Of a DNA stretch of 64,000 nt, positions 19,972 through 36,561 are shown piece by piece. Made by a program: the position numbers and the translations under genes. The notes beneath the pieces were generated by a model. That model saw nothing but the letters and a program-made list of their open reading frames with translations. It was not told where the DNA came from and did no database searches. Numbering within the stretch: the first letter of the stretch is position 1; the number at the start of each line of letters is the position of its first letter. Source of the DNA: Syntrophotalea acetylenica. Its GTDB lineage: Bacteria; Desulfobacterota; Desulfuromonadia; Desulfuromonadales; Syntrophotaleaceae. The stretch spans positions 1,110,001-1,174,000 of the forward strand of contig NZ_CP015455.1 of assembly GCF_001888165.1 (NCBI RefSeq), read 5' to 3'.

Positions 19972-20943
19972 TTGAAGACCGCTCCCGTAACCGTCATAAC
20001 AGCCGTCTATAATGCCGAGCGTTTTCTTCGGGAAACCGTGGAATCGGTTTCGAAACAGCAGCTGTTGCCGGTTCAGCATCTGCTTGTCGATGATTGTTCC
20101 ACGGACGGGTCTCTGGACCTGGCGCGCGAGCTTGAGAAGGAATTCCCTTTGGTTCGCGTTGTATCCCTTGAAACAAACGGCGGTTATCCCGCTGCGTTGA
20201 ATGCAGGCCTGCGTGAAGCCGCCTCGGAGTATGTGGGGATCCTGGACAGTGACGACATTGCCATGCCGCACTGGCTGGCATCGGTGGTTCCGGTTCTCGA
20301 TGGCAATCCGGATATTGGTTCGGCAGGCGGGGGCGGTGTTATCATGACCCATGACGGGCTGGTAACGGGACATGCCAAATACTGTTCGCAGGCAGGTGAT
20401 GTCACAGCTGAGGTTATGGCTGGAAAGTATGCCATATTGCATCCAGGATCCGTTCATCGCCGCGATTTTCTATTAAAGACAGGTGGCTATAACCCGCGGC
20501 TCCGAAGTGCCGAGGATTGCGACATGTTCCTGAATATGGCCTCTGTGGCACGTCTGGTAAACGTGGGAGAACCCTTGATTTATTATCGACGCCTGCCGGG
20601 ATCTGAAAGCCGCAAAACGCCTGAATTTGCGGCTTTGGCGGAGGCCTATCTCGCGCAAAAAGCGCAAATGCTGTCCGCGGGCAAATCCTTGCCGGCAACC
20701 AATGCCGAGCTGGCGTCGCTTGTGAACGCCCTGGCGGCTCTGCCGCGACTGGCTCCGCTTGTGAAGGGAGCCTATGAATATGAAATGGCCGAAGCGCTGC
20801 GCCGTGGAGACCGGCGCCTTTGCGCCTCCCGTTTTTATTTTGCATCGGCAATCTCCGGTCATAAGCGTTTTTTATGCTGTCGACGCGCTCTGCGCTGTCT
20901 TATGCCGCGGCTGAAATCGACCTCCGAGCCGAAAAAGGCCTGA
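19972..20943 (+). CDS. Glycosyltransferase family 2
   Basis: This predicted cytoplasmic glycosyltransferase probably extends the LPS core or O-chain; the sugar is unknown. The 323-residue GT-A protein has VTVITAVYNAERFLRETVES, the nucleotide-binding LVDDCSTDGS, and GILDSDDIAMP holding the metal-binding DSD. I prefer TTG 19972 (GAAAGG 10 bases upstream), where homology begins; an in-frame ATG at 19936 would add 12 residues from inside the repeat region. The C-terminal CRRALRCLMPRLK is basic and may touch the membrane. It is the first of three consecutive GT2 genes. Confidence 0.85.
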   Translation: MKTAPVTVITAVYNAERFLRETVESVSKQQLLPVQHLLVDDCSTDGSLDLARELEKEFPLVRVVSLETNGGYPAALNAGLREAASEYVGILDSDDIAMPHWLASVVPVLDGNPDIGSAGGGGVIMTHDGLVTGHAKYCSQAGDVTAEVMAGKYAILHPGSVHRRDFLLKTGGYNPRLRSAEDCDMFLNMASVARLVNVGEPLIYYRRLPGSESRKTPEFAALAEAYLAQKAQMLSAGKSLPATNAELASLVNALAALPRLAPLVKGAYEYEMAEALRRGDRRLCASRFYFASAISGHKRFLCCRRALRCLMPRLKSTSEPKKA

Positions 20944-20947
20944 AAAA

Positions 20948-21961
20948 ATGCAAACCGATGCCCACGTTCCCCCGGTGTCCGTGATCCTGCCTGTTTTCAA
21001 CGCTCAGGCCACTGTCGCCGCCACATTACAATGCCTGTTGAACCAGACCTTGAAAGACCTGGAAATTATCGTGGTCAATGATGCCTCCGCAGATGATTCC
21101 CTGACGGTTGTCGAAAGCATAGCGCGAAAAGAGCAGCGGGTCCGTTTGCTGTCTCTGGAAAAGAATGCGGGTGTGTATCGAGCCCGAGCGGAAGGCATTA
21201 AAATTTCAAGGGGTGAGTATGTCGGATTTTTTGATGCTGACGACTTTGCCAAGCCCGATATGTTCGAAATTTTGTTTTCCAACTGCAAGCAACACAACGC
21301 CGACATTGCTGTTTGCGGGGTGGACTGTGTTTCCGATTCCGGAAAATTTATCCACCATAAAGTCAAATTTAAAAAAGACAAAAACGTTACAAGCCAGATC
21401 TTCTCAGGTTTTTGCCGAAAACATTTCGGGACGGGAGCTCTGTGGAACAAGCTTTACCGCAGGGAACTGATTGAAACCTACGCTACCAGGCCATTTCGAT
21501 GGCGCCAGGATATTGGCGAAGATACCATCGTAAACATTGGCTGTTTTCTTGACGCCAGACGTATCCGATTGATTGATAAGTCTCTTTACGAATATGTCAT
21601 GCATCCCCGAAGTACCACCCAGATATTGGATAAATCCAGTGCTTTTTGTCGGATGATGCAGGCTTATGCCATCGCTGTTGATATGTACAAAGACAAGGGC
21701 GTTGAAGTGCTTGAGGGAATAACCGAGCTTTATGCACGGCAACTGAATTTTTCAGCCTATCGGATTTCATCGGCCGAACAGTTGAGGGATTGCGAAGAAC
21801 TGCTTGCCGACGCCCTCGGATTGCTGGCCGAGCAATACCCCGCGGGCCTGGCGTGTCTTGTGAATCGGGGGTTTTGCCGGGGAGGGAAATCGCGGAAATC
21901 GCGTGGGCTTTTATCTGCTGCCCAAAAAAAACTGAAACAGTTTCTTCAGTTAAGGACGTAA
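20948..21961 (+). CDS. Glycosyltransferase family 2
   Basis: The 337-residue protein has the GT-A N-terminus VSVILPVFNAQATVAATLQ, IIVVNDASADDS and GFFDADDFAKPD with the DAD-type metal site (about residues 93-96), then FGTGALWNKLYRRELIE and the RWRQDIGEDT segment common in this group. It starts 4 bases after the previous GT2 gene and is probably co-transcribed. The C-terminus is strongly basic. Base composition becomes AT-richer through this gene. Donor and acceptor cannot be deduced. Confidence 0.85.
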   Translation: MQTDAHVPPVSVILPVFNAQATVAATLQCLLNQTLKDLEIIVVNDASADDSLTVVESIARKEQRVRLLSLEKNAGVYRARAEGIKISRGEYVGFFDADDFAKPDMFEILFSNCKQHNADIAVCGVDCVSDSGKFIHHKVKFKKDKNVTSQIFSGFCRKHFGTGALWNKLYRRELIETYATRPFRWRQDIGEDTIVNIGCFLDARRIRLIDKSLYEYVMHPRSTTQILDKSSAFCRMMQAYAIAVDMYKDKGVEVLEGITELYARQLNFSAYRISSAEQLRDCEELLADALGLLAEQYPAGLACLVNRGFCRGGKSRKSRGLLSAAQKKLKQFLQLRT

Positions 21962-22053
21962 TACCCTTTTGATGAAAATATCGATTTTTGAAAGGCTTGT
22001 TTGGTTTAAAAAACCAGTCCGAAACACCAACGATAGGCAGATGTATCAAGATT

Positions 22054-22890
22054 ATGATGTCTTCAGAAAAAAACAATCCGTTTGTTTCAATCATAATTCC
22101 TACGCGGAATCGATCCGATCTTTTACCATATGCTATAAAATCCGTGCTTGACCAGACGTATAAAAACCTTGAAGTGGTCGTTGTTGATGACGGTTCGGTG
22201 GATGACACTGAAGTCATTGTCATGAACATGATGAAAAACGATAATCGTATTCAGTATATTCGAAACGATATATCAAAGGGAGCCTGTGCCGCCAGAAACC
22301 TTGGGATAATGTCAGCAAAAGGTGACTTGATTTCTTTTGTTGATGATGATGATCAAATATCTATAAACAGATTGGAAATTCTTGTTGCGCACTATGACGA
22401 CCAATATTCACTGATCTGTTCAAAATACAGTAGTGCACCGCTGGGTGGCGCTGTTTCGAAACATAGGATTACAACAAAAAAAATTTCTCTTTCAAATCTT
22501 CTGAATAAAAATTACATTGGCTGTTCCGCTCTTGTATCCAAACAAAAAATAATGGCAGTAGGCGGATTTGATATCAAATTGCGGGCCCGGCAGGATTATG
22601 ATTTATGGGTTAGAATCCTTGATGAATTCGGAAAAGCCCTGCAGATATCCGCCAAGACCTACTATTGTGACAAGTCTTCGGAACGAGAAAGGATTTCCAA
22701 CTCAAAAGCCCGAAGAATAGGAGTGATACAGTTTTACAAAAAGCATTCCCGCCTGATGACGTGCCATCAGCGTAAAAATGCAATTGTTGCATGTTTGGAG
22801 GCCAATAATTTTAATCCCGGGTTTTTAAAACTTCTGGTCCTTTTGACCTGGCGTAACCGGAAGAAAGTCTTTGGTCTTCTCAAGGTTTAG
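22054..22890 (+). CDS. Glycosyltransferase family 2
   Basis: The 278-residue protein opens with MMSSEKNNPFVSIIIPTRNRSD, followed by LEVVVVDDGSVDDTE and ISFVDDDDQIS holding the metal-binding acidic cluster. The ATG at 22054 is chosen because homology starts just after it; an upstream in-frame TTG at 21988 gives a poorly supported 22-residue extension. No clear ribosome-binding site precedes it. The gene is distinctly AT-rich compared with the waa genes, suggesting a different origin. It may act on the LPS core or O-antigen; specificity is unknown. Confidence 0.82.
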   Translation: MMSSEKNNPFVSIIIPTRNRSDLLPYAIKSVLDQTYKNLEVVVVDDGSVDDTEVIVMNMMKNDNRIQYIRNDISKGACAARNLGIMSAKGDLISFVDDDDQISINRLEILVAHYDDQYSLICSKYSSAPLGGAVSKHRITTKKISLSNLLNKNYIGCSALVSKQKIMAVGGFDIKLRARQDYDLWVRILDEFGKALQISAKTYYCDKSSERERISNSKARRIGVIQFYKKHSRLMTCHQRKNAIVACLEANNFNPGFLKLLVLLTWRNRKKVFGLLKV

Positions 22891-22994
22891 TTTATTTTCA
22901 ATAATATGAATGTTTAAACAAACTCACTGTTTTTCATAGTGCGATCCTGCATTCACACACATTTTGACTGGAGTTTGACAACACTGGGGAAACC

Positions 22995-24159
22995 ATGAGG
23001 GTTCTGCATTACGTCAAGCAGTTTTCTCCCCTTTCGGAGACTTTTGTTTACAATCAGATCATTGATCTTCAATCCGGGGGATTGAGAATTTTGTAGTAAC
23101 ACATAAAAGGGTTAATGCCGAAGGGCGGCCTTTTGCTCCCGTATTCGAATTATCCGAAAAGAAATCCTTTTTTTATCGTGAGATGCAGCGGTTTCTTCGA
23201 AAGCACGGCTACTACAAATATGCCCTTTCCACAAAGGTCTGGAAGGAAATCCTTCAAAAGTTCGCCCCTGATGTGATTCATTGCCATTTTGGAAAAAGTG
23301 GCTTTTATGTATCCTCGATTCTCGATAAATTAAAAATCGACCTTCCGCTGCTCATTGCCTTTCACGGGACCGATGTTTTAAAAACACCTTTTGAGGACAC
23401 GTCGTATAAGTCTCAAATACAAAGAACTTCCCTGAAGAAAAAAGTCGCATTCACTACGCCTACTTTATTTCTTAAAAACCTTGCAGTCTCGAATTTCGGC
23501 ATTCAACCCGATAAAATCGTTGTCAATCCCAATGGTTTTCGGTGCGATTTCAACGGATTTTACCGTGTCAGAAAAAATGACGGGCATTCTTCCTTCAAGA
23601 TCATAAATATCGCCCGTTTTACCGCATGGAAAGGGCAGGATTACCTGATAAAAGCCTTCAGGGAATTTTCGGGCCGGGTTGACTGTGATGTTGCGCTGAC
23701 CCTTGTCGGATACGGGGAAAGAAAACCGGCCCTCCTTCAACTGATAAACGACCTGGGCCTGCAGGACAAGGTTACCGTCCTGGAGAGTGTGCCGCATGAA
23801 TCGATACCGGCGATATTGAAGGAACATGACCTTTATGTGCAACCGTCCATAACGGATCATAAAACGAAGCAGGCGGAATCGTTCGGCGTTTCCATTCTTG
23901 AGGCCGTGGCTGTCGGTCTGCCGGTTATTGTGACCGATTCAGGGGGTATGCAGGAGGTTGTTCTGGGGGGGATCAAGCAACGGCCATTGTTGTCGAGGAA
24001 AAAAATTGCCGAGCTTTGTGCGAAGCCATGACCAGGGTTTATGCATGCGGGAGAAACATCGACCTCGTTCTGAGATCCAGGATTCTGGAGCGTTACAATC
24101 AGCCAAACAATACCGCCGCTGTGGTCCGGATGTACGAATCCCTCCTTCAAGACGGGTGA
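22995..24159 (+). pseudogene. Glycosyltransferase family 4, broken by two frameshifts
   Basis: Three adjacent frames make one coherent GT4 protein. Frame one (22995-23096) reads MRVLHYVKQFSPLSETFVYN and hits a TAG at 23094. Adding one G to the G5 run at 23076-23080 joins it to the middle frame (IENFVVTHKRVN, CHFGKSGFYVSS, RFTAWKGQDYL, SFGVSILEAVAVGLPVIVTD). A second one-G addition in the G7 run at 23965-23971 restores a natural end (GGDQATAIVVEEKNC ... YESLLQDG, stop 24157-24159). The restored protein would be about 388 residues, normal for GT4. Either the gene is inactive, it varies in phase at G tracts, or the sequence has two homopolymer errors. The middle segment alone is open from 23084 to 24031. 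Confidence 0.85.
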
Positions 24160-26463: not shown

Positions 26464-27417
26464 ATGCAATGGTCTATTGTCATACCTACCTATAATTACG
26501 GTCGGTTCATCGAAAGATGCCTGGCTTCCATTGTGGATCAGCCGGGAGACGATTACGAGATTGTGGTTGTGGATGACGGATCCACGGACGACACCCGGGC
26601 CGTGGTCGAGGCATTCGTACGCTATCGGCAGTTGCCCACCGGGCGACTGCGCTACCTCTGCCAGCACAACCAGGGGCCGGCCGCGGCCCGCAATCATGGT
26701 ATCGCCGACAGCCGTGGGGATTTTGTCTGGTTTCTCGATTCCGACGACAGGCTGGCGGCCGGGGCTTTAGAGCAGATGCGGCAGACGGTGCGGCAACATC
26801 CGCGGGGAGAGCTGTTTTTCGGCGGCTACCGTTCAATGGCCGAGGATGGCCGCGGTTCGGATAAGCTGCCCGGCAAGGTGGCTGTCTGCCGGACAGAAAA
26901 TTTCAGGCGGTTTCTGCGCAAGGAACTCAGGAGCCTTACCACCGGCGCGGTGGTGGTGCGCAAATCTTCGCTGGGGGATATAAGGTTTCCGGAGGGCATT
27001 CATATCAACGAGGATGTGGCCTTTTTCGGCCACCTCGTTGCAAGCTGCAAGGTGGTACCCGTGGCGCGGATCCTGGTCGAAAAAATCCGTCATCCCGCCA
27101 GCCTGCGCGGCAACCTCGGGCGCATCGAGGAAACCGGCTTGCGCAGCGTCGATGCCCTGTTTGATGCGGCGCGTTTGACATCCGCCCAGATGAAGTTGCG
27201 CAGCCGGTATCGGGCCGATCGCTGCCTGCGGTTGTTTCGCGCCCATTATCTGCATGGCAATTACGCCCTGGCCCGATCTTATTATGGACAGATGCTGAAA
27301 ACTGCGCCGTGCTATCTGTTCAAAGCGGGATACCTTCTCAGGTTTTTACGTTGTTTCGGGAAATCAGAAGGGGGGGCGTCCGATCCGCCGGACGCTGCCG
27401 AAACCCATGATGTCTGA
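26464..27417 (+). CDS. Glycosyltransferase family 2
   Basis: The 317-residue protein begins MQWSIVIPTYNYGRFIERC and contains IVVVDDGSTDDTR and FVWFLDSDDRLAAG (DSD metal site around residue 95), followed by EGIHINEDVAFFGHLV in the acceptor-binding half. The ATG at 26464 fits the homology; an in-frame TTG at 26446 would add six residues. Its last bases overlap the next kinase-like gene, so the two are likely translated together. A role in core or O-chain assembly is inferred from neighbours. Confidence 0.85.
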   Translation: MQWSIVIPTYNYGRFIERCLASIVDQPGDDYEIVVVDDGSTDDTRAVVEAFVRYRQLPTGRLRYLCQHNQGPAAARNHGIADSRGDFVWFLDSDDRLAAGALEQMRQTVRQHPRGELFFGGYRSMAEDGRGSDKLPGKVAVCRTENFRRFLRKELRSLTTGAVVVRKSSLGDIRFPEGIHINEDVAFFGHLVASCKVVPVARILVEKIRHPASLRGNLGRIEETGLRSVDALFDAARLTSAQMKLRSRYRADRCLRLFRAHYLHGNYALARSYYGQMLKTAPCYLFKAGYLLRFLRCFGKSEGGASDPPDAAETHDV

Positions 27418-28141
27418 GCGGCACGGGACGTATCGTTGCTATTTTCCCGATGCCCCCAGCCAGAAGGATTTAAGGGCAGCGCTGTTGCCGGATCCCGACC
27501 GTCTGCTTGAGAGGGGAGAGTGCATTTCTTCGGGACGCGAGGGCAATCCCCGCCACCTTGCCAAAGTGGCGATAAATGGCCGGGCCTATTTGCTCAAACG
27601 TTACGATTGCCAGGGGGCTTTTTACCGGATCAAGAATGTTTTCCGAGCTTCCCGGGCTCTGCGTTCGCTGCGGGCAGGCCAATGGCTGCATTCGGTCGGC
27701 GTGTCGACACCGGAACCGCTGGCCTGCCTGGAGGAAAGGCAAGCCGGTCTGCTTGGTCGCAGTTACCTGCTGTGCCCCTTTCTGGAGGGCGTTCGCCCGC
27801 TGCTGGCCGTATGGCCCGAACTCGATGCCGAGGGACGTTGGCTTTATCTGCGACGCCTGGGCGGGATCATGGGACGCTTGCACCGGGCGCATATCGTGCA
27901 CGGCGACAGCAACTGGCGAAATATCCTTGTCGGTGAAAACCGTCCGGGAGAACTCCGCTTCTGGCTGGTGGACCTGGATTGCACCCGGCGCTACCCGCGC
28001 CTTGCGCCGGCCCGGGCGGAACGGGATATCGGCCATTTTCTTCGCGACCTTTCACGCAGCGGGGCAGGCGCGGAATGCATGCAACTGTTTCGCCACCATT
28101 GGCGGGTTGCATTGACCAACAACCAAGGAGACATTCGGTAA
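27407..28141 (+). CDS. LPS-kinase-like protein (WaaP/InaA superfamily)
   Basis: The 244-residue protein shows RAYLLKRYDCQGAFYRIKN (lysine-bearing strand, around residues 57-75), RSYLLCPFLEGVRPL (hinge), HRAHIVHGDSNWRNILV with the catalytic HGD (around residue 165) and LVDLDCTRRYPR (VDLD metal-binding motif). The motifs match the C-terminal kinase domains of the 33797 and 34984 genes better than WaaP, so these three form a subfamily. Start ATG 27407 (or 27410) overlaps the preceding glycosyltransferase, and the stop overlaps the gmhA ATG (TAATG). The target is probably a core heptose or hexose; this is inference. Confidence 0.78.
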   Translation: MMSERHGTYRCYFPDAPSQKDLRAALLPDPDRLLERGECISSGREGNPRHLAKVAINGRAYLLKRYDCQGAFYRIKNVFRASRALRSLRAGQWLHSVGVSTPEPLACLEERQAGLLGRSYLLCPFLEGVRPLLAVWPELDAEGRWLYLRRLGGIMGRLHRAHIVHGDSNWRNILVGENRPGELRFWLVDLDCTRRYPRLAPARAERDIGHFLRDLSRSGAGAECMQLFRHHWRVALTNNQGDIR

Positions 28142-29893: not shown

Positions 29894-30068
29894 AACACAG
29901 GTTGCCTGACGGAAGGGGCAGGAGCCAAGAAACACTATGCGCCAATGGATTTTTCCGGGGTCAAGCGGTACTCTGTGGCCACCCGGGACATTTAAAAAAA
30001 CGCGCCGGATCACTGAAGGAGTCGCGCACCGAAATTCAATTTCCGCGTAAGGCTGCAAGGCATAGCAT

Positions 30069-30926
30069 GTGGGGGATGACGTGAGAAGCATTAACAGGTT
30101 AAAAAGAGAACTGTCGTGGTATATAAAGGCGCAACTTGCCAAAAACTCCTCGGGAAGAGGTCTTTTTATTTTAGGCACCGGCCGGTCGGGGACCCATTTT
30201 CTAACCCAATGCCTGATCAGCCATCCGGAATTTACCGACCTTATGGGCGGCAAGGAAAACCCCTATGTTTTCAGAGATGTTGTTGACCTGGCATTGAACA
30301 ATTGCAGGGATGCGGAGAAGATACAGCGTGTTCTGAAAAAGTATAAGCAACTCATGAAGGTTGCCTCGCCGAAGATCTTTGTTGACCAAAGCCATCCCAA
30401 CCTGTGGTTGGCCGACAAGATCGCAGAAAACATTCCCGGGTCAATGTTTGTCGGGATCATAAGAGATCCTTTTTCCGTGGCCTATTCCACCACGCAGCAT
30501 GCGGGGGTGAGCGGATGGTTTGACAAGTGGGAGTCTTTTCCTCTGCCCAATCCGTTTCTGGGGATAGGTGTCGCGGACAGGGAACGTTATGTAACAATGA
30601 GCATTGCAGAAAAAAGTGCCCTGCGCTGGATTTCTCATGTAAAACGTCTCGGCGAATTGAAGCCGATTCTGGGAGATCGACTTGTAATCGTTAATTATGA
30701 AGATTTATGTAATGCCGGGGAAGACCAAATGCGAAGAATCTCAGAATTTTTAAATGTTAAAAACAAGTTTGTTATGCCTTTTGTGACCAAGGAATCTTTA
30801 TACAAGAAAAATAAACTTTCAAATGAAGATATTGAACTTATGAAATCGACAATAATTAATTATCAGAATAATAATAATATAGAAAAAGATATGTATAAAT
30901 CTGTTTGTGGATACTTGGATATTTAA
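30069..30926 (+). CDS. Sulfotransferase family protein
   Basis: The 285-residue protein has LFILGTGRSGTHFLTQCLI near the N-terminus (residues about 32-50), the 5'-phosphosulfate-binding loop of PAPS-dependent sulfotransferases, and FVGIIRDPFSVAYSTTQHAG (around 132-150), the 3'-phosphate-binding motif R-D-P-x-x-x-x-x-S. Start is GTG 30069 or GTG 30081; the latter has GGGGG at good spacing. The 3' third is very AT-rich (an AATAATAATAAT tract encodes four asparagines), unlike its neighbours, suggesting recent acquisition. It may sulfate a core sugar or an exported glycolipid. No PAPS-making genes are in this window. Confidence 0.8.
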   Translation: MGDDVRSINRLKRELSWYIKAQLAKNSSGRGLFILGTGRSGTHFLTQCLISHPEFTDLMGGKENPYVFRDVVDLALNNCRDAEKIQRVLKKYKQLMKVASPKIFVDQSHPNLWLADKIAENIPGSMFVGIIRDPFSVAYSTTQHAGVSGWFDKWESFPLPNPFLGIGVADRERYVTMSIAEKSALRWISHVKRLGELKPILGDRLVIVNYEDLCNAGEDQMRRISEFLNVKNKFVMPFVTKESLYKKNKLSNEDIELMKSTIINYQNNNNIEKDMYKSVCGYLDI

Positions 30927-31016
30927 GTTTATATTTTTATATTACGAAAAGTGTTTATGTTCTGCGACAGCAGATAGAAGCAGAATGCAGAAGGATTGCG
31001 GGCAGGAGTTGCGCGG

Positions 31017-32150
31017 GTGAAATTGGGTTTTTGTCTGTTCCGGTATTTTCCTTACGGAGGATTGCAGCGTGATTTTCTCAAGGTCGCCATGGAATGCCGG
31101 CGTCGAGGACACCGCATCCTCGCGTATGTCATGGATTGGCAGGGAGAGGTTCCGGAAGGTCTCGAGCTTGAGGTGGTTTGCGCGCGGGGGATAACAAATG
31201 CCGCCCGCTGCCGGGACTTTGCCGCTCAGGTCGCCCGTAAGCTTGGAAAAGAAGACTTTGCCTGTGTTACCGGTTTCAACAAAATGCCTGGGCTCGACGT
31301 CTATTTTGCGGCAGACCCCTGTTTTGCGGCCCGCCTGCATGAGGACAAACCTTTTTTGTGCCGCTTCAGCCGGCGTAACCGGATCTATCGCGAGCTTGAA
31401 CGTTCCGTGTTTTCTCCGCAGGCCAATGTGCGCATCCTCATGCTGACCAGGCTTGAACAGGAACGCTATGTCAAGTATTATCGGACACCCGCCGAGCGCT
31501 TCACGCTGTTGCCTCCGGGAATTTCCCGCGATCGAATCATCTCTGCCGGCGCTTCTGAACGAGGACTCCGGATGCGCCAGGAGTTCGGGATCGGCGCTGA
31601 CGAAAAACTGGTGCTGATGGTCGGCTCCGGCTTTCGCACCAAGGGGCTGGACCGGAGTTTGCGGGCCCTGGCATCCTTGCCGGAAAAGGTTCGGAGCCAG
31701 GTGCGCCTGGTGGTGATTGGCGCGGGTGACACCAGGCCCTTCCTGAAACTCGCCGAAAGGTTGGGGGTGGGCGATCGGGTGCGTCTGCTCGGGCCCCGTG
31801 ATGATGTCCCCGATTTTCTGCTTGCGGCGGATATGCTGTTGCATCCGTCCTACACCGAAGCGGCAGGCATGGTTTTGCTGGAGGCCATGGCTGCCGGGTT
31901 GCCGGTGCTGGCTACGGATATTTGCGGTTATGCGTTTCATATCCAGCAGGCCAGCGCCGGGCTGCTGATTCCATCTCCCTTCCGGCAGGAAAGAATGAAC
32001 CAGTTGTTTGCCCACATGTTGTTTTCCGATCAGCTGTCTCAGTGGCGTCGCAATGGCCTGGATTACGTCGCCCGAAACGATATCTCCAGCCTGCCGGAAC
32101 GTGCCGCTGATGTTATCGAAGAGGTCGCACGACGAAGGGGCCACCTATGA
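31017..32150 (+). CDS. waaG: LPS core glucosyltransferase I
   Basis: WaaG (GT4) adds the first outer-core glucose to heptose II. The 377-residue protein is a close match to E. coli WaaG as I recall it: FCLFRYFPYGGLQRDF at the start, FNKMPGLDVYFAADPC around residues 95-110, MLTRLEQERYVKYY, ERFTLLPPGI, and LLHPSYTEAAGMVLLEAMAAG with the donor-binding Glu pair. The GTG at 31017 is preceded by AGGAG at 8 bases and lies right before the homology; a longer reading from 30996 is not supported. It overlaps waaP by four bases. Confidence 0.93.
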   Translation: MKLGFCLFRYFPYGGLQRDFLKVAMECRRRGHRILAYVMDWQGEVPEGLELEVVCARGITNAARCRDFAAQVARKLGKEDFACVTGFNKMPGLDVYFAADPCFAARLHEDKPFLCRFSRRNRIYRELERSVFSPQANVRILMLTRLEQERYVKYYRTPAERFTLLPPGISRDRIISAGASERGLRMRQEFGIGADEKLVLMVGSGFRTKGLDRSLRALASLPEKVRSQVRLVVIGAGDTRPFLKLAERLGVGDRVRLLGPRDDVPDFLLAADMLLHPSYTEAAGMVLLEAMAAGLPVLATDICGYAFHIQQASAGLLIPSPFRQERMNQLFAHMLFSDQLSQWRRNGLDYVARNDISSLPERAADVIEEVARRRGHL

Positions 32151-32968
32151 TGGAATTGTATGGCCCCTGTCGGGAGGCCTTTTCCGGTCCGGACGGCTTT
32201 GACCGGGTTCTGGCATTGCAGGGACAGGTCTATCGCGAAATGGACGGTCGTCGAACCTTGCGTTTCACCCTTGACGGGCGCGGCTTTTTCGCCAAGCTGC
32301 ACTTCGGGATCGGCTGGAAGGAGATTTTCAAGAACCTGCTGCAGGGCAAACGCCCGGTTCTGGGCGCGGACAACGAACGCGAGGCGATCCGTCGCCTGGA
32401 ACAACTCGGTGTCGCGACCATGAAGGTTGCGGGGTTCGGGTACCGTGGGCGCAACCCTGCCAGGCGGCAGTCCTTTCTGATCACCGAGGAGCTGGACAAC
32501 ACCATCAGCCTCGAAGATGTCTGCTTGCCTTGGAAACGAAAGCCGCCGTCAGTTGCGTTCAAGCGGGCGCTGCTGGCGAAGGTTGCCACCATCACCCGCA
32601 CCCTGCACGATCACGGCATCAACCATCGGGATTTGTATATCTGTCATTTTCTGTTGGATAAATCCTCGGTTCGCCCCGATCCGGACTGGCCGCGGCTTTA
32701 CCTCATCGATCTGCATCGGGTGCAGATCCGTGACAAAATCCCCCGCCGATGGGCGGTAAAAGACGTGGCCGGCCTGTATTTCTCCAGCCTTGATATCGGT
32801 CTGACGCAGCGTGACCTTTTTCGGTTCATGAAAATATACCGCGGAAGTTCGTTGCGTGAGGTCCTGCGGACCGAGTCGCGCTTCTGGGAGGATGTTGTCC
32901 GCCGCGCGATCAGACTTTACGTGAAAACCTTTGGCCACAGGCCTTCGAATTCCGGCGAAAACGCATGA
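32147..32968 (+). CDS. waaP: LPS heptose I kinase
   Basis: WaaP phosphorylates heptose I of the inner core, important for outer-membrane barrier function. The 273-residue protein matches E. coli WaaP along its length: MMELYGPCREAFSG at the start, LQGQVYREMDGRRTLRF, KNLLQGKRPVLGADNE, the catalytic INHRDLYICHFLL (HRD, around residue 161) and LIDLHRVQIRDKIPRRW, ending with GLYFSSLDIGLTQRDLFRFMK. The ATG overlaps the waaG stop (ATGA), giving the usual waaG-waaP pair. Start 32147 or 32150 are equally possible. Confidence 0.93.
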   Translation: MMELYGPCREAFSGPDGFDRVLALQGQVYREMDGRRTLRFTLDGRGFFAKLHFGIGWKEIFKNLLQGKRPVLGADNEREAIRRLEQLGVATMKVAGFGYRGRNPARRQSFLITEELDNTISLEDVCLPWKRKPPSVAFKRALLAKVATITRTLHDHGINHRDLYICHFLLDKSSVRPDPDWPRLYLIDLHRVQIRDKIPRRWAVKDVAGLYFSSLDIGLTQRDLFRFMKIYRGSSLREVLRTESRFWEDVVRRAIRLYVKTFGHRPSNSGENA

Positions 32969-33008
32969 TGCCCTCGCATCAAACCGGCTTCTCTGCCGTT
33001 ATGGGAAT

Positions 33009-33800
33009 ATGGATATTTTAAAGCTTTACTGGTCGACGAGCCTGCAGAACGGCCACCGGAATTTCGGCGATTGGCTTTCGCCGCGGCTCTGCGAGGCCCT
33101 GTCCGGCATGAAGGTCGTGCATGCAAGGCCCAATCGATGCGACCTCATGGCGCTTGGCAGTATCCTCGGCAAGGCCAAAAATCATTTCTGGAACCGCCGC
33201 ATCGACATCTGGGGATCGGGTCTTATTGCCCGTTGCAAGCCATTCAAAAGCCCTCACCGCATTCATGCCGTCAGGGGTTGGCATACTGCCCGTGCGATTT
33301 CCAATCAACAGATTGCCGTGGTGGGCGACCCCGGTTTGCTGTGTGACATCCTGGTGCCGGGGAACATTGCGGTCCGAAAAGATTACAGCGTCGGCCTGAT
33401 TCCCCACTACGTCGACCGGGAAAATACACTGATCAGAAGCATCGTTGAGCAAATCCCGCGGGCCAGATGTATCGATATCTTTTCCGAAACCCTGGATTTC
33501 ATCCGTCAGGTGGCCGCCTGCGAATATGTGCTGTCCTCCAGCATGCACGGTCTTATAACAGCCGACGCACTCGGCGTGCCCAATGCCTGGATTCGCCTGT
33601 CCGACAAGGTCTGGGGCGAGGACTTCAAATTTCATGATTATTTTAGTGTTTTCGGGCTGGAAAACGTACAGCCGTTTCCCCTTGAACGGCACACCTCGCT
33701 GCGGGATATCGAACAGGGTCTGGCCGGTTACGGCCGGCCCGGGTTGCAAGATATCAAAACGCGACTCTATCAAGCTTTCCCTTACAAGAAATCATCGTGA
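33009..33800 (+). CDS. Polysaccharide pyruvyl transferase family protein
   Basis: The 263-residue protein has the N-terminal NFGDWLSPRLCEAL block (around residues 14-27), IWGSGLI, the central VVGDPGLLCDIL, LIPHYVDREN, and the hallmark VLSSSMHGLITADALGVPNAW (S-S-x-x-H-G, around residues 178-197) of PS_pyruv_trans enzymes. These add ketal-linked pyruvate to sugars from phosphoenolpyruvate, or in some cases act as glycosyltransferases. ATG 33009 is taken because homology begins there; the ribosome-binding site is weak. Its TGA overlaps the GTG of the next gene. The acceptor is unknown. Confidence 0.8.
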   Translation: MDILKLYWSTSLQNGHRNFGDWLSPRLCEALSGMKVVHARPNRCDLMALGSILGKAKNHFWNRRIDIWGSGLIARCKPFKSPHRIHAVRGWHTARAISNQQIAVVGDPGLLCDILVPGNIAVRKDYSVGLIPHYVDRENTLIRSIVEQIPRARCIDIFSETLDFIRQVAACEYVLSSSMHGLITADALGVPNAWIRLSDKVWGEDFKFHDYFSVFGLENVQPFPLERHTSLRDIEQGLAGYGRPGLQDIKTRLYQAFPYKKSS

Positions 33801-35002
33801 AACCCGATAACAGCATAAGGTCGTTGACGGATGGCGGGGGCACTTGGCAGATGCCGCAAGATGGACAGCCCCTGGCCGATTTTATGCCTCGCTTTTATGC
33901 CCGACTGTCCCCCGGGGAAAAGCGAAGAATGGCTGTGAAACTGGGCCAGGCAGTTCGCCGATGGCACGATGCCGGGACGCAGGTGTGTAAAGCAGACGAT
34001 ATTGTGGTGACGCATCGGATGCCCGCAAACACAGATTTTTTGCCAAGAGGCCGCCATTTGCCGGGCAGCCATCGGCCGTTGTCCAAGCGCCGCCGGATTA
34101 AGGCCCTCGGCGGTCTGCTGTCGGATTGCTGGGATTTCACCAGCCGCTCCGAGCGGCAGCGTTTTTTACGGGCTTATGTTCGATCCGGCCCGGAGATCGG
34201 CCAGTTGCACCGGGGACTTATAGAAAAATGTGCCTATGAAAAAAGCTACGCTGCCTGGCATCGGCAGGGGAGGTATTGTTTCGGTAACAATGCAGCGTTT
34301 TGTGCCGGGCACCGCGATGGATTTCGCTATCACGGCGACAAGCAGCGGGCCGGCACTGCCCTGCGGGAACTGCTGCCCGATCCGGACAAAATTCTTGAAC
34401 AGGGGCAGATATTCAAGCCGGGCAGCCGTACTCATGCAGGCAGAATCTATTTAAGCTGCGGCGAAGGTTTTTTGAAAAGGTTCAATGACCGGGGCTGGTG
34501 GTACAGGGTGAGGCACCTTTTCCGTCGGTCCCGTGCCGTGCATAACTGGAAGGTTATGTGGGCGTTTCGCTACCGGCGGATTCCCGTCGCCGATCCGGTG
34601 CTGTGCCTGGAAGAACGCTTTTTCCGGATATTGAAGAGGTCCTATGTATTGACCGATTTTGCGGAAGGCGGGCAGCGGCTGAAGATCGTCTGGCAGGGCC
34701 TTTCCGACGCGCAGCGGTGTTGCCTTCTTATTGTCCTGGCTCAACTGCTGGGACGCATGCACCGCTTTGGTTGTCTTCACGGCGACCTTAAATGGGACAA
34801 TATTCTGGTTTGCGCAACCGGAAAAGGTTGGCGGATTACCCTGGTCGATCTCGACGGCAGCCGTGTTCTGCGAAGACCGGCGGCGAACAGGGCCATCCGG
34901 GATGTCGGGCGGTTTCTCCGGGATCTGGAGCAGGTAGACACGACCGGACAGTGGGGTCGCATGTTTCGCCGCAGTTGGAAAAAATGGATAACAAATATCT
35001 GA
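33797..35002 (+). CDS. Tandem LPS-kinase-like protein, N-terminal domain truncated
   Basis: The 401-residue protein has two parts. Residues about 205-401 form a kinase-like domain: FLKRFNDRGWWYRVRHLF, RSYVLTDFAEGGQRL, FGCLHGDLKWDNILV (HGD catalytic loop) and LVDLDGSRVLRRP. Residues 1-200 resemble the latter part of a second such domain (KRRMAVKLGQAVRRWHDAG, GRYCFGNNAAF) but lack an N-lobe and the HGD loop. The same two-part plan is seen in the next gene, so the pair looks like a duplication. The GTG start overlaps the previous stop; the 3' end overlaps the next gene by 19 bases. A core-sugar kinase role is inferred. Confidence 0.72.
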   Translation: MKPDNSIRSLTDGGGTWQMPQDGQPLADFMPRFYARLSPGEKRRMAVKLGQAVRRWHDAGTQVCKADDIVVTHRMPANTDFLPRGRHLPGSHRPLSKRRRIKALGGLLSDCWDFTSRSERQRFLRAYVRSGPEIGQLHRGLIEKCAYEKSYAAWHRQGRYCFGNNAAFCAGHRDGFRYHGDKQRAGTALRELLPDPDKILEQGQIFKPGSRTHAGRIYLSCGEGFLKRFNDRGWWYRVRHLFRRSRAVHNWKVMWAFRYRRIPVADPVLCLEERFFRILKRSYVLTDFAEGGQRLKIVWQGLSDAQRCCLLIVLAQLLGRMHRFGCLHGDLKWDNILVCATGKGWRITLVDLDGSRVLRRPAANRAIRDVGRFLRDLEQVDTTGQWGRMFRRSWKKWITNI

Positions 35003-36561
35003 TCAGCCCAGTTGCAGCAACCACAGACGCCCTCAAAAGGCTGTTGGTGAATGTGCAATGGACCGCTGGCGGTGAGCATCTGGCCAGCTTGCTGCGAACA
35101 TTGCCGGCGACGGCAGGGGATGCACACGCCATCGATCAAACCGGCCTGTGGCTCTGGCGCCGGCCGATGGACGCCTTGTCTTTTTTGCATTGGCTTCCTG
35201 TGGCCGGTGCCGGGAAAAAAGGCTTTCGGCAACTGTCCGTTCGTGGCCTGCCGGGCCCAGAGATTCTGGCGCGGGGCATGGAAAGGGTTGTCGGCCATAA
35301 ACCGCAGCAGGTACTTGTAGTGCGGGGCTGGCTACCGGGCAAATATCTGGATGATTTTTTCGCCGAGGACTTTCCGTCTCTGCCGGCGACACACCGTCAG
35401 GCGATCGTGCGTGATTTCGGACATTTTGTCCGCGACATGTTCGAGCGGGGCGCTCAGCCGACCCGTCTGACCCTGACCCGTTTCTGGGTCGATGCGGGGC
35501 AGGATCCTGTCGGGTTTCGCCTTGCCGGGATCGATGGTTTCCGTTGGCACAACAAGCCACTGACCGACCGGCAAAGATTTGTCTGTCTGCAGCATCTGCT
35601 TGGCACCTTGCCGGTGCATGTCAGCCGCAGCCAGCGGTTTCGTTTTTTCCGGGCTGTGTGCGGCGATCAGGGCCGGTTGCGCGAGTTTCGTAACCTCCTT
35701 GTGGATCTGGAAGCCGCCGCGCTTTGTTCGGCCCGGCGCTACTGGCGTCGCAAGGCACGTTTGAGTCTTGGCAACAATGCTTGGTTTGCCGTCCTGCGCC
35801 ACGAAAACTGGCGCATCTGGAGACGGCGGTGCGACGAGGCATTGCGCCTTCAGCAAAGCATGCTTGCGGAACCCGCCGCCACTTTCCGGGCTGGCCTGGC
35901 CATGGCGGGCAGGGGTTCCGGATGCTCGGCCGCCAGAATCGAAGTCGGCGGGCACCAGTATTTTGTCAAACGTTATCGCCTTCCGGGGTTGAGGTACCAG
36001 GTCAAATATCTGTTTTTGCGCTCCAAGGCGTTGGCTGCCTGGCTTGCCGGATGGCAGTGCGCAGCACGCAGCCTGCCGACCGCCCAGCCCCTGATGGTGA
36101 TGGAAAAACGCACTTTCCGGATTTTAAAGGAATCCTACCTGGTGTCTGAATTCTGCAGCGACGGGCGGCCGCTGATGACGGTATGGCCGGAGTTGAAGCC
36201 GCACGAGAGACGCCGTATCATTATTCGCAGTGCGCAATTGCTGGCCCGGGTGCACAGATCCCGATGTCTCCACGGGGACACCAACTGGAACAATATCCTG
36301 GTGCGCCCCAATGGCGCATTGCTGCTGGTGGATCTGGACTGTTTCAGGCAGAGACGATCCTTTGACTACACGCGCGCCTATCGCGATCTCGAGCATTTCA
36401 TACGGGATCTGCGGCGTAAACGTAACGACGGGGTGGGGTATCTGGACCTGCTCATCTCCACCTGGCGGAACTGGCTCGATGCAGGCAGCCGGGTGAGCTG
36501 TGAGGAGCATGCCCGCATTGTCCGCGCCAATCCCGGTCGCCGGGTGGACGATTGCATCTGA
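34984..36561 (+). CDS. Tandem double-domain LPS-kinase-like protein
   Basis: The 525-residue protein carries a degenerate kinase-like half and an intact one. The N-terminal half (about 1-290) has an N-lobe-like segment (LWLWRRPMDALSFLHWLPV), VVRGWLPGKYLDDFF, and HFVRDMFERGAQPTRLT where the HGD loop should be, so it is probably inactive. The C-terminal half (about 315-525) has YFVKRYRLPGLRYQVKYLF, ESYLVSEFCSDGRPL, SRCLHGDTNWNNILV and LLLVDLDCFRQRRSF. The linker CSARRYWRRKARLSLGNNA matches AAWHRQGRYCFGNNA in the previous protein. ATG 34984 lies within the end of the upstream gene. I know of no named family with this arrangement. Confidence 0.72.
   Translation: MDNKYLISPVAATTDALKRLLVNVQWTAGGEHLASLLRTLPATAGDAHAIDQTGLWLWRRPMDALSFLHWLPVAGAGKKGFRQLSVRGLPGPEILARGMERVVGHKPQQVLVVRGWLPGKYLDDFFAEDFPSLPATHRQAIVRDFGHFVRDMFERGAQPTRLTLTRFWVDAGQDPVGFRLAGIDGFRWHNKPLTDRQRFVCLQHLLGTLPVHVSRSQRFRFFRAVCGDQGRLREFRNLLVDLEAAALCSARRYWRRKARLSLGNNAWFAVLRHENWRIWRRRCDEALRLQQSMLAEPAATFRAGLAMAGRGSGCSAARIEVGGHQYFVKRYRLPGLRYQVKYLFLRSKALAAWLAGWQCAARSLPTAQPLMVMEKRTFRILKESYLVSEFCSDGRPLMTVWPELKPHERRRIIIRSAQLLARVHRSRCLHGDTNWNNILVRPNGALLLVDLDCFRQRRSFDYTRAYRDLEHFIRDLRRKRNDGVGYLDLLISTWRNWLDAGSRVSCEEHARIVRANPGRRVDDCI

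Follow-up and report, generated by a model that had tools for sequence, protein, structure and literature searches.

Two overlapping genes of Syntrophotalea acetylenica each encode a protein in which a dead kinase domain precedes a kinase that looks live. The genes, A (33797..35002) and B (34984..36561), both on the forward strand, lie in a stretch of 64,000 nucleotides of contig NZ_CP015455.1 (assembly GCF_001888165.1, positions 1,110,001 to 1,174,000), here called the window, whose numbering is used throughout. Judged by sequence comparison, the front half of each protein derives from a WaaP-family kinase and has lost the catalytic residues, and the back half keeps all of its own. An earlier note on this DNA had placed two double-domain proteins with an intact back kinase at 33797-36561, and these coordinates are right. 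Live-looking and dead forms of the same fused domain occur in related genomes, which makes a role for the pseudokinase testable by direct comparison. What could keep a dead domain in place? Tentatively, and as a real possibility, we propose that the dead WaaP front is retained to serve the live back kinase as a module for docking or stabilisation.

The origin of the front halves emerges from profiles better than from single sequences. The fronts of A (33851..34312) and B (34984..35796) are similar to each other by blastp (26% over 163 amino acids, E 1.8e-9), a similarity that the earlier note had singled out as the thing to look for. Alone, the B front matches the kinase family PF06293 at E 3.9e-4 and 20.4 bits, just below the curated cut-off of 21.3, and the A front has no PF06293 match; the front of the intact homologue L008 scores 53.6 bits. 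Neither front matches the RfaP equivalog NF011703 (cut-off 170 bits), to which the intact fronts of L008 and L011 score 46.9 and 57.1 bits. Combined in a profile, the six dead fronts known from A, B and their relatives match the RfaP profile (hhalign, E 1.5e-13) and the intact fronts (E 5e-36), with reversed-sequence controls at E 0.24 and 0.56 respectively. Against all PDB sequences, a profile made of dead fronts only has a single match at E <= 0.001, WaaP itself (6dfl, 1.9e-4), followed by an aminoglycoside phosphotransferase at E 0.007; the top PDB match of the intact-front profile is also 6dfl (E 5.9e-14). In these profile comparisons the front halves share the homology of the WaaP-type carboxy-terminal lobe (C-lobe), sub-domain II included, which supports the kinase origin proposed for them earlier and places it in the WaaP family. 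The alignment of intact fronts with WaaP/RfaP extends from the amino-terminal lobe (N-lobe) to the C-terminal tail, and that of dead fronts takes in the C-lobe and the tail, with the helix that docks acyl carrier protein (acyl-ACP) among the aligned parts; WaaP, in contrast, is a single active kinase, and its version in A and B forms the front of a two-kinase protein and has lost the catalytic residues. The notion that the fronts are not kinase-derived, their likeness being due to chance or misalignment, draws on the missing PF06293 match of the A front and on a fold search with the whole B model that gave no separate reading of the front, but it is hardly credible in view of the profile matches with their reversed controls, the dead-front-only match to WaaP and the direct homology to intact fronts.

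The same alignments redraw one boundary. The RxxxxGNNA segment, which the earlier note took for a linker between the halves, falls opposite the final helix and the tail of RfaP, and because of this it is the C-terminal end of the front domain, with no spacer. The model of the B front has predicted local distance difference test (pLDDT) values of 79-95 over residues 121-300 and a poorer N-lobe (35-88 over residues 1-130), although it is not independent evidence for the fold because the alignment behind it included intact kinases.

Equivalents of the L008 residues K53, E75, H157, D159, N164 and D180 are kept in 0/6 dead fronts, which bears out the claim that the fronts lack HGD. The position of D159 differs among them (R, K, H, H, L and P, the shared H being that of the relatives in genomes G004 and G002), and the position of D180, the aspartate of the DFG motif, is G in four of the six. 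In a separate alignment with WaaP, A alone has a D opposite WaaP D163, which makes the catalytic-loop alignment of A uncertain; regardless of this, A lacks an N-lobe and an H preceding that D, and it has an R at the DFG aspartate. The absence of the N-lobe from A had also been noticed earlier; the DNA upstream of A is occupied by a pyruvyl transferase-like gene. Might the fronts still be catalytic through non-canonical residues? Other kinase-like families manage without the usual lysine, according to PMC1821047, and PMC3281104 considers possible or weak activity for predicted pseudokinases such as SelO and ErbB3. Such activity is very improbable here, since K, E, H, D, N and the DFG aspartate are all replaced in B, the D159 position is varied across the six dead fronts (even if D180 is mostly G), and A is without an N-lobe.

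The back halves, in contrast to the fronts of A and B, keep their catalytic motifs. PF06293 (Kdo/WaaP) matches the back half of A (34350..34999) at E 3e-13 with 50.1 bits and that of B (35797..36480) at 9e-12 with 45.3 bits, both over the curated cut-off of 21.3, and the catalytic K, HGD, N and DxD (in the form DLD) are present in both. The best NCBIfam model for the back halves is the equivalog NF002475 for KdkA, the 3-deoxy-D-manno-octulosonic acid kinase (also PF06293), with 40.3 bits for A, 27.2 for B and 61 for L008; neither A nor B reaches its cut-off of 142 bits. Unlike KdkA, these kinases score far below that cut-off, are fused behind a WaaP-type domain and, in proteins of the B type, carry an Asn where the catalytic loop would otherwise have a Lys. 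Whole-protein predictions have a mean pLDDT of 80 for B and 86 for A. The comparison with the WaaP fold that had been suggested earlier was informative for one half of the protein: in a search with the whole B model the back half aligns with WaaP 6dfl (Z 18.4, rmsd (root-mean-square deviation) 3.2, 209 residues) and with PRPK (Z 19.9), but the matches all fall in the back half (model residues 273-525), leaving the front without a reading of its own. Beyond its conserved aspartate the back half continues for 30 to 40 residues in 8/9 proteins measured and for 57 in B; after the corresponding long helix the A model has one helix, the B model one plus a poorly modelled one, and WaaP three. Compared with WaaP, the back kinase as modelled appears to have a shorter C-terminal region. 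All 14 proteins of the clade that contains A and B have intact back motifs, and across the aligned double kinases the K, catalytic D and DxD of the back half are kept, with HGD variants and one N-to-H change (L045).

No family name was found for this domain plan, as the earlier note had said, but the plan is not confined to A and B: the fusion is old and widespread, and most of its front halves are intact. A homologue search gave matches in 62/136 genomes of the order (E <= 1e-12) and in 46/395 genomes of a phylum sample (E <= 1e-40, own genome included), some of the matches being single kinases. In all, 72 double kinases were read: 14 of the A/B clade, 26 of a more distant group 2, 5 distant proteins and 27 from the phylum sample. 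Identical open frames among the first three of these sets were counted once, and matches below 100 bits, three partial A/B copies and L034 (genome G030, a double kinase with an internal stop codon) were excluded from them; 29 loci of the phylum sample were read, from which L109 (1278 amino acids, motifs the same as in L039) and L133 (back half only) were set aside. The front catalytic loop and DxD are kept in 64/72, a front being called intact when its catalytic D, N and DxD are present; L131 is counted as intact with an H in place of the N, a substitution that WaaP shares. In the A/B clade, eight double kinases have both halves intact, six from the order and two from Syntrophobacteraceae metagenome-assembled genomes (MAGs), and the six dead fronts are those of A, B and one protein each from G002, G004, G032 and G059. 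The same front residues are kept in 26/26 proteins of group 2, in 5/5 distant proteins (from Planctomycetota, an anammox MAG, a Myxococcales MAG and one other bacterium) and in 25/27 of the phylum sample; the front lysine, checked in group 2 and not in the 27, is present in 25 of the 26 (L106 is cut off before it). The two altered fronts of the phylum sample, that of L130 (G169), with E for D, H for N and G for the DFG aspartate, and that of L129 (G411), with N for D, are possibly separate losses.

Gene context and further fusions point to a place in the building of the lipopolysaccharide (LPS) inner core. The tandem LPS kinases L008-L013, L038 and L039 share the two-domain plan and mostly the same type of gene neighbourhood with A and B, but both of their halves have catalytic residues, and three of them are fused to glycosyltransferases (GTs). 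In one Syntrophobacteraceae MAG, L038:2855-6541 is an open frame of 1229 amino acids with the order GT4-kinase-kinase-heptosyltransferase, its last domain over the heptosyltransferase II cut-off, and in a Syntrophobacteraceae MAG L039:2855-6688 encodes 1278 amino acids with the same Pfam plan and a GT9 domain; as read from their domains, these frames would put several core-assembly steps in one chain. In L012:517-3051 (G075) a double LPS kinase is followed by a GT2 in the same open frame (845 amino acids). A waaC, gmhA or RfaP-like gene lies near the kinase at 17/20 context loci (two of which, L037 and L040, repeat L083 and L084) and none does at L038, L039 and L092. This sequence context places the double-kinase family in LPS inner-core building, with the exact sugars presumed. 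Because 64/72 fronts are intact and fusions to GT4 and heptosyltransferase domains occur, the ancestor of A and B was probably an active tandem LPS-core kinase. No relative of B was found in the plasmid records or viral contigs searched. The parts of A and B belong to a known family, and among the open-access literature matches listed none was recognised as dealing with tandem kinases of the WaaP family or with a dead LPS kinase.

A tree of the back domains (33 rows, 218 columns) separates an A-type group (9 rows, support 91/93) from a B-type group (10 rows, support 97/95). Forcing A and B together as sisters gives p-AU 0.03 in the approximately unbiased (AU) test, which is moderate evidence because the end branch of B is long (1.38). 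Fusion, duplication and decay, the history that the earlier note had sketched, all fit the relatives, but a recent duplicate pair does not: A and B look like old paralogues, one in each of two groups. The catalytic loop separates the groups as well, reading HGDLKW in 9/9 A-type and 8/8 intact proteins and HGD[T/S/L]NW in 10/10 B-type proteins (HGDTNW in B itself); Asn for Lys occurs in 0/9 A-type and 0/8 intact proteins, and its presence throughout the B type suggests a changed substrate site. Back kinases above 100 bits number one per genome in the six genomes with intact fronts (G003, G007, G011, G023, G064, G075; G003 is of the same genus as the host and G011 of the same family), two or three in the five with dead fronts (the host G000, G002, G004, G032, G059) and two each in G017 and G126, which have lost the front; these genomes are related and are not independent events.

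Two other relationships were considered and given up. The intact gene of G007 shares GT4c (our own label), RfaP and pyruvyl transferase neighbours with A and might have been its positional counterpart, yet an A/G007 sister pair, picked after the tree was seen, is disfavoured (p-AU 0.04); cluster shuffling or transfer could explain both the shared neighbours and the tree. A stand-alone RfaP as substitute for the lost front does not follow the state of the front: NF011703 has a match (E <= 1e-5) in 17/17 genomes searched, 8 of them over the cut-off, and among the intact-front genomes G007 and G075 are over it and G003, G011, G023 and G064 under. In G012 and G098 the sole match is another kinase of the superfamily.

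The pattern of what the dead fronts conserve is where the docking proposal begins. Scored over residues conserved in at least 7/8 intact fronts, with gaps left out, retention in the six dead fronts is 44/107 for the N-lobe, 19/47 for the middle helices, 20/88 from the catalytic loop to DFG, 54/68 at the C-lobe end and 29/54 for the tail. The difference between C-lobe end and catalytic loop has a Fisher p of 1e-12, uncorrected for kinship and with regions chosen after inspection. The 26 intact fronts of group 2 have an opposite, weaker bias (C-lobe end 114/310, catalytic loop 197/390, p 3e-4), and the 5 distant fronts go in the same direction as group 2 (30/56 and 55/75). The best-kept part of a dead front is its C-terminal helical region, not the active-site cleft. 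Within it, A retains SRSERQRFLRAY and B retains SRSQRFRFFRA and the tail up to GNNA; the kept helix, SRSxRxRFLRxY, aligns with R221 to Y231 of WaaP, the acyl-ACP-docking helix of the Pseudomonas protein. According to PMC6147952, the sub-domain of WaaP that holds this helix is where acyl-ACP is bound in the crystal, WaaP synthesised in vitro remained soluble only when acyl-ACP was present, and replacement of five arginines in the docking sub-domain abolished growth support. Among the seven acyl-ACP contacts of WaaP described there, the equivalents of K140, R221 and R226 are basic in 6/6 dead fronts.

Together, these observations suggest a sequence of events for A and B, which would be LPS inner-core sugar kinases. 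In their ancestor a WaaP-type kinase in front would have been fused to a KdkA-like kinase behind, and with both halves active one protein could have phosphorylated two core positions; the ancestral architecture and motifs are seen in relatives, and we infer the activity and the substrates from them. Duplication would then have produced an A line and a B line, with front catalysis disappearing at about the same stage, in one event or several. In the B line, Asn for Lys probably shifts the phosphorylated site and may replace the lost front activity. Phosphate transfer in A and B would be left to the back halves, and the dead front would be kept mainly through its C-terminal helical region, the counterpart of the acyl-ACP-binding part of WaaP; it may dock acyl-ACP or the lipid A-core substrate and so stabilise or position the back kinase. 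The fullest form of this proposal, in which a dead LPS heptose kinase has become a built-in acyl-ACP/lipid A-core adaptor and an altered-loop sister does the reaction of the dead domain, we regard as unlikely. Under adaptor and sister takeover combined, the working kinase sites of the family would stay at two or more per genome. The set of live-looking and dead fronts also suggests that phosphotransfer and the acyl-ACP-docking region of WaaP are separable in evolution, and the single open frames that join sugar transfer and core phosphorylation in some bacteria are a direct hint that the two are coupled.

A number of observations weigh against these proposals. The node that joins the A-type and B-type groups has a support of just 50/86, which leaves room for one loss of front catalysis or more. 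A single full back kinase is found in G005, G012, G063 and G098, which have lost the front (genomes 67-91% complete; G012 has a fragment in addition). The remaining acyl-ACP contacts are poorly kept: R237 is basic in 4/6 dead fronts, R141 and R229 in 3/6 each, and the R222 equivalent in 0/6, as also in 0/8 intact fronts. Conserved residues of the tail, the former linker, are retained at 7/9 in B and at 3 to 5/9 in the other five. In the closest pair of dead fronts, G004/G002, identity is 49% at the C-lobe end and 49%, 47% and 49% in the other front segments, and the ratio of non-synonymous to synonymous substitution rates (dN/dS) is 0.36 at the C-lobe end, 0.35 in the N-lobe, 0.20 in the middle helices, 0.26 in the tail and 0.10 in the back half, with dS saturated in the catalytic segment. 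In this pair, constraint at the C-lobe end does not exceed that on the other parts of the front. Intact control pair L009/L010 has dN/dS of 0.11, 0.37, 0.05 and 0.09 in front segments and 0.11 in the back; all of these ratios are approximate, since every pair has a high or saturated dS, and the pair of A and B is saturated and uninformative. Finally, B-type single kinases such as K244 in the window (27407..28141, forward strand) have no front half, which makes the module dispensable for some back kinases.

The lack of extra constraint at the C-lobe end in G004/G002 and the front-less kin of the K244 type make passive decay a serious rival. The front would on this account be a relic that became redundant after duplication and was lost piecemeal, with no function beyond not harming the fold. 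The relatives form a graded series that it would explain, from intact fronts to dead ones in which the N-lobe has become shorter or has diverged (B, G004, G002), to those whose N-lobe is gone (A, G059, G032), to a stub or no front (G017, G126, K244), and the front dN/dS of G004/G002, which is between twice and almost four times the back value with the C-lobe end not favoured, agrees with it. Against passive decay stand the uneven loss across the six dead fronts, with the intact fronts of group 2 biased the opposite way, and the G004/G002 front dN/dS, which is below 1 in the computable segments. We consider a passive relic possible but somewhat doubtful.

Retention for regulation has a well-known precedent. 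JAK-type tandems carry a dead front kinase and a live back kinase in one chain, and a JAK chain is among the Foldseek matches of the B model. A front that acted as an allosteric pseudokinase, turning the back kinase on or off, would share the dead-front, live-back order of the JAKs, and the well-modelled part of the B front (residues 121-300), whose fold is not independent evidence, would suit it. But A and two relatives have no N-lobe and with it no nucleotide cleft, and A and B differ from the JAKs in being sugar kinases of an LPS-core cluster with a separate origin; a switch of this kind seems distinctly unlikely.

The surroundings of the two genes are an LPS inner-core cluster with waaC, several GT2 and GT4 genes (GT2a-d and GT4a-c in our own labelling), gmhA, hldE, a gene that we take to be gmhB, and a stand-alone RfaP/WaaP heptose(I) kinase, the counterpart of the front halves (32147..32968, forward strand; 375 bits to NF011703). 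A second RfaP-like kinase in the cluster scores 131 bits to the same model, below its cut-off. Immediately 5' of A is the polysaccharide pyruvyl transferase-like gene (32982..33800, forward strand), whose TGA overlaps the GTG start of A at 33797. The open frame of A encodes 401 amino acids, with Met19 (33851) as a possible alternative start; residues 1-18 are modelled at pLDDT <50. The open frame of B extends over 34792..36561, and its likely start, ATG 34984 (525 amino acids), lies inside the end of A. These successive overlaps are arranged as in a coupled operon. The host genome, of 3.2 Mb in two contigs, is 99.99% complete.

K244 lies between a GT2 gene on one side and gmhA on the other. 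B-type single kinases directly 5' of gmhA recur at L080, L081 and L093 (G004, G002 and G005, all of the host's genus). Window positions 20000-24000 and 30000-32000 drop to 42-52% G+C from about 59% around them; the LPS-cluster genes in these stretches encode glycosyltransferases and sulfotransferases and look like separate acquisitions. Elsewhere in the host genome, L107:1337-3610 (G000:C1, about 2475336-2477609) is an open frame of 758 amino acids in which a PF06293 kinase is confined to residues 567-713, close to the C-terminus; no Pfam family matches the remainder of the frame at E 1e-5, and its relatives are open frames of 741-800 amino acids with a similar match.

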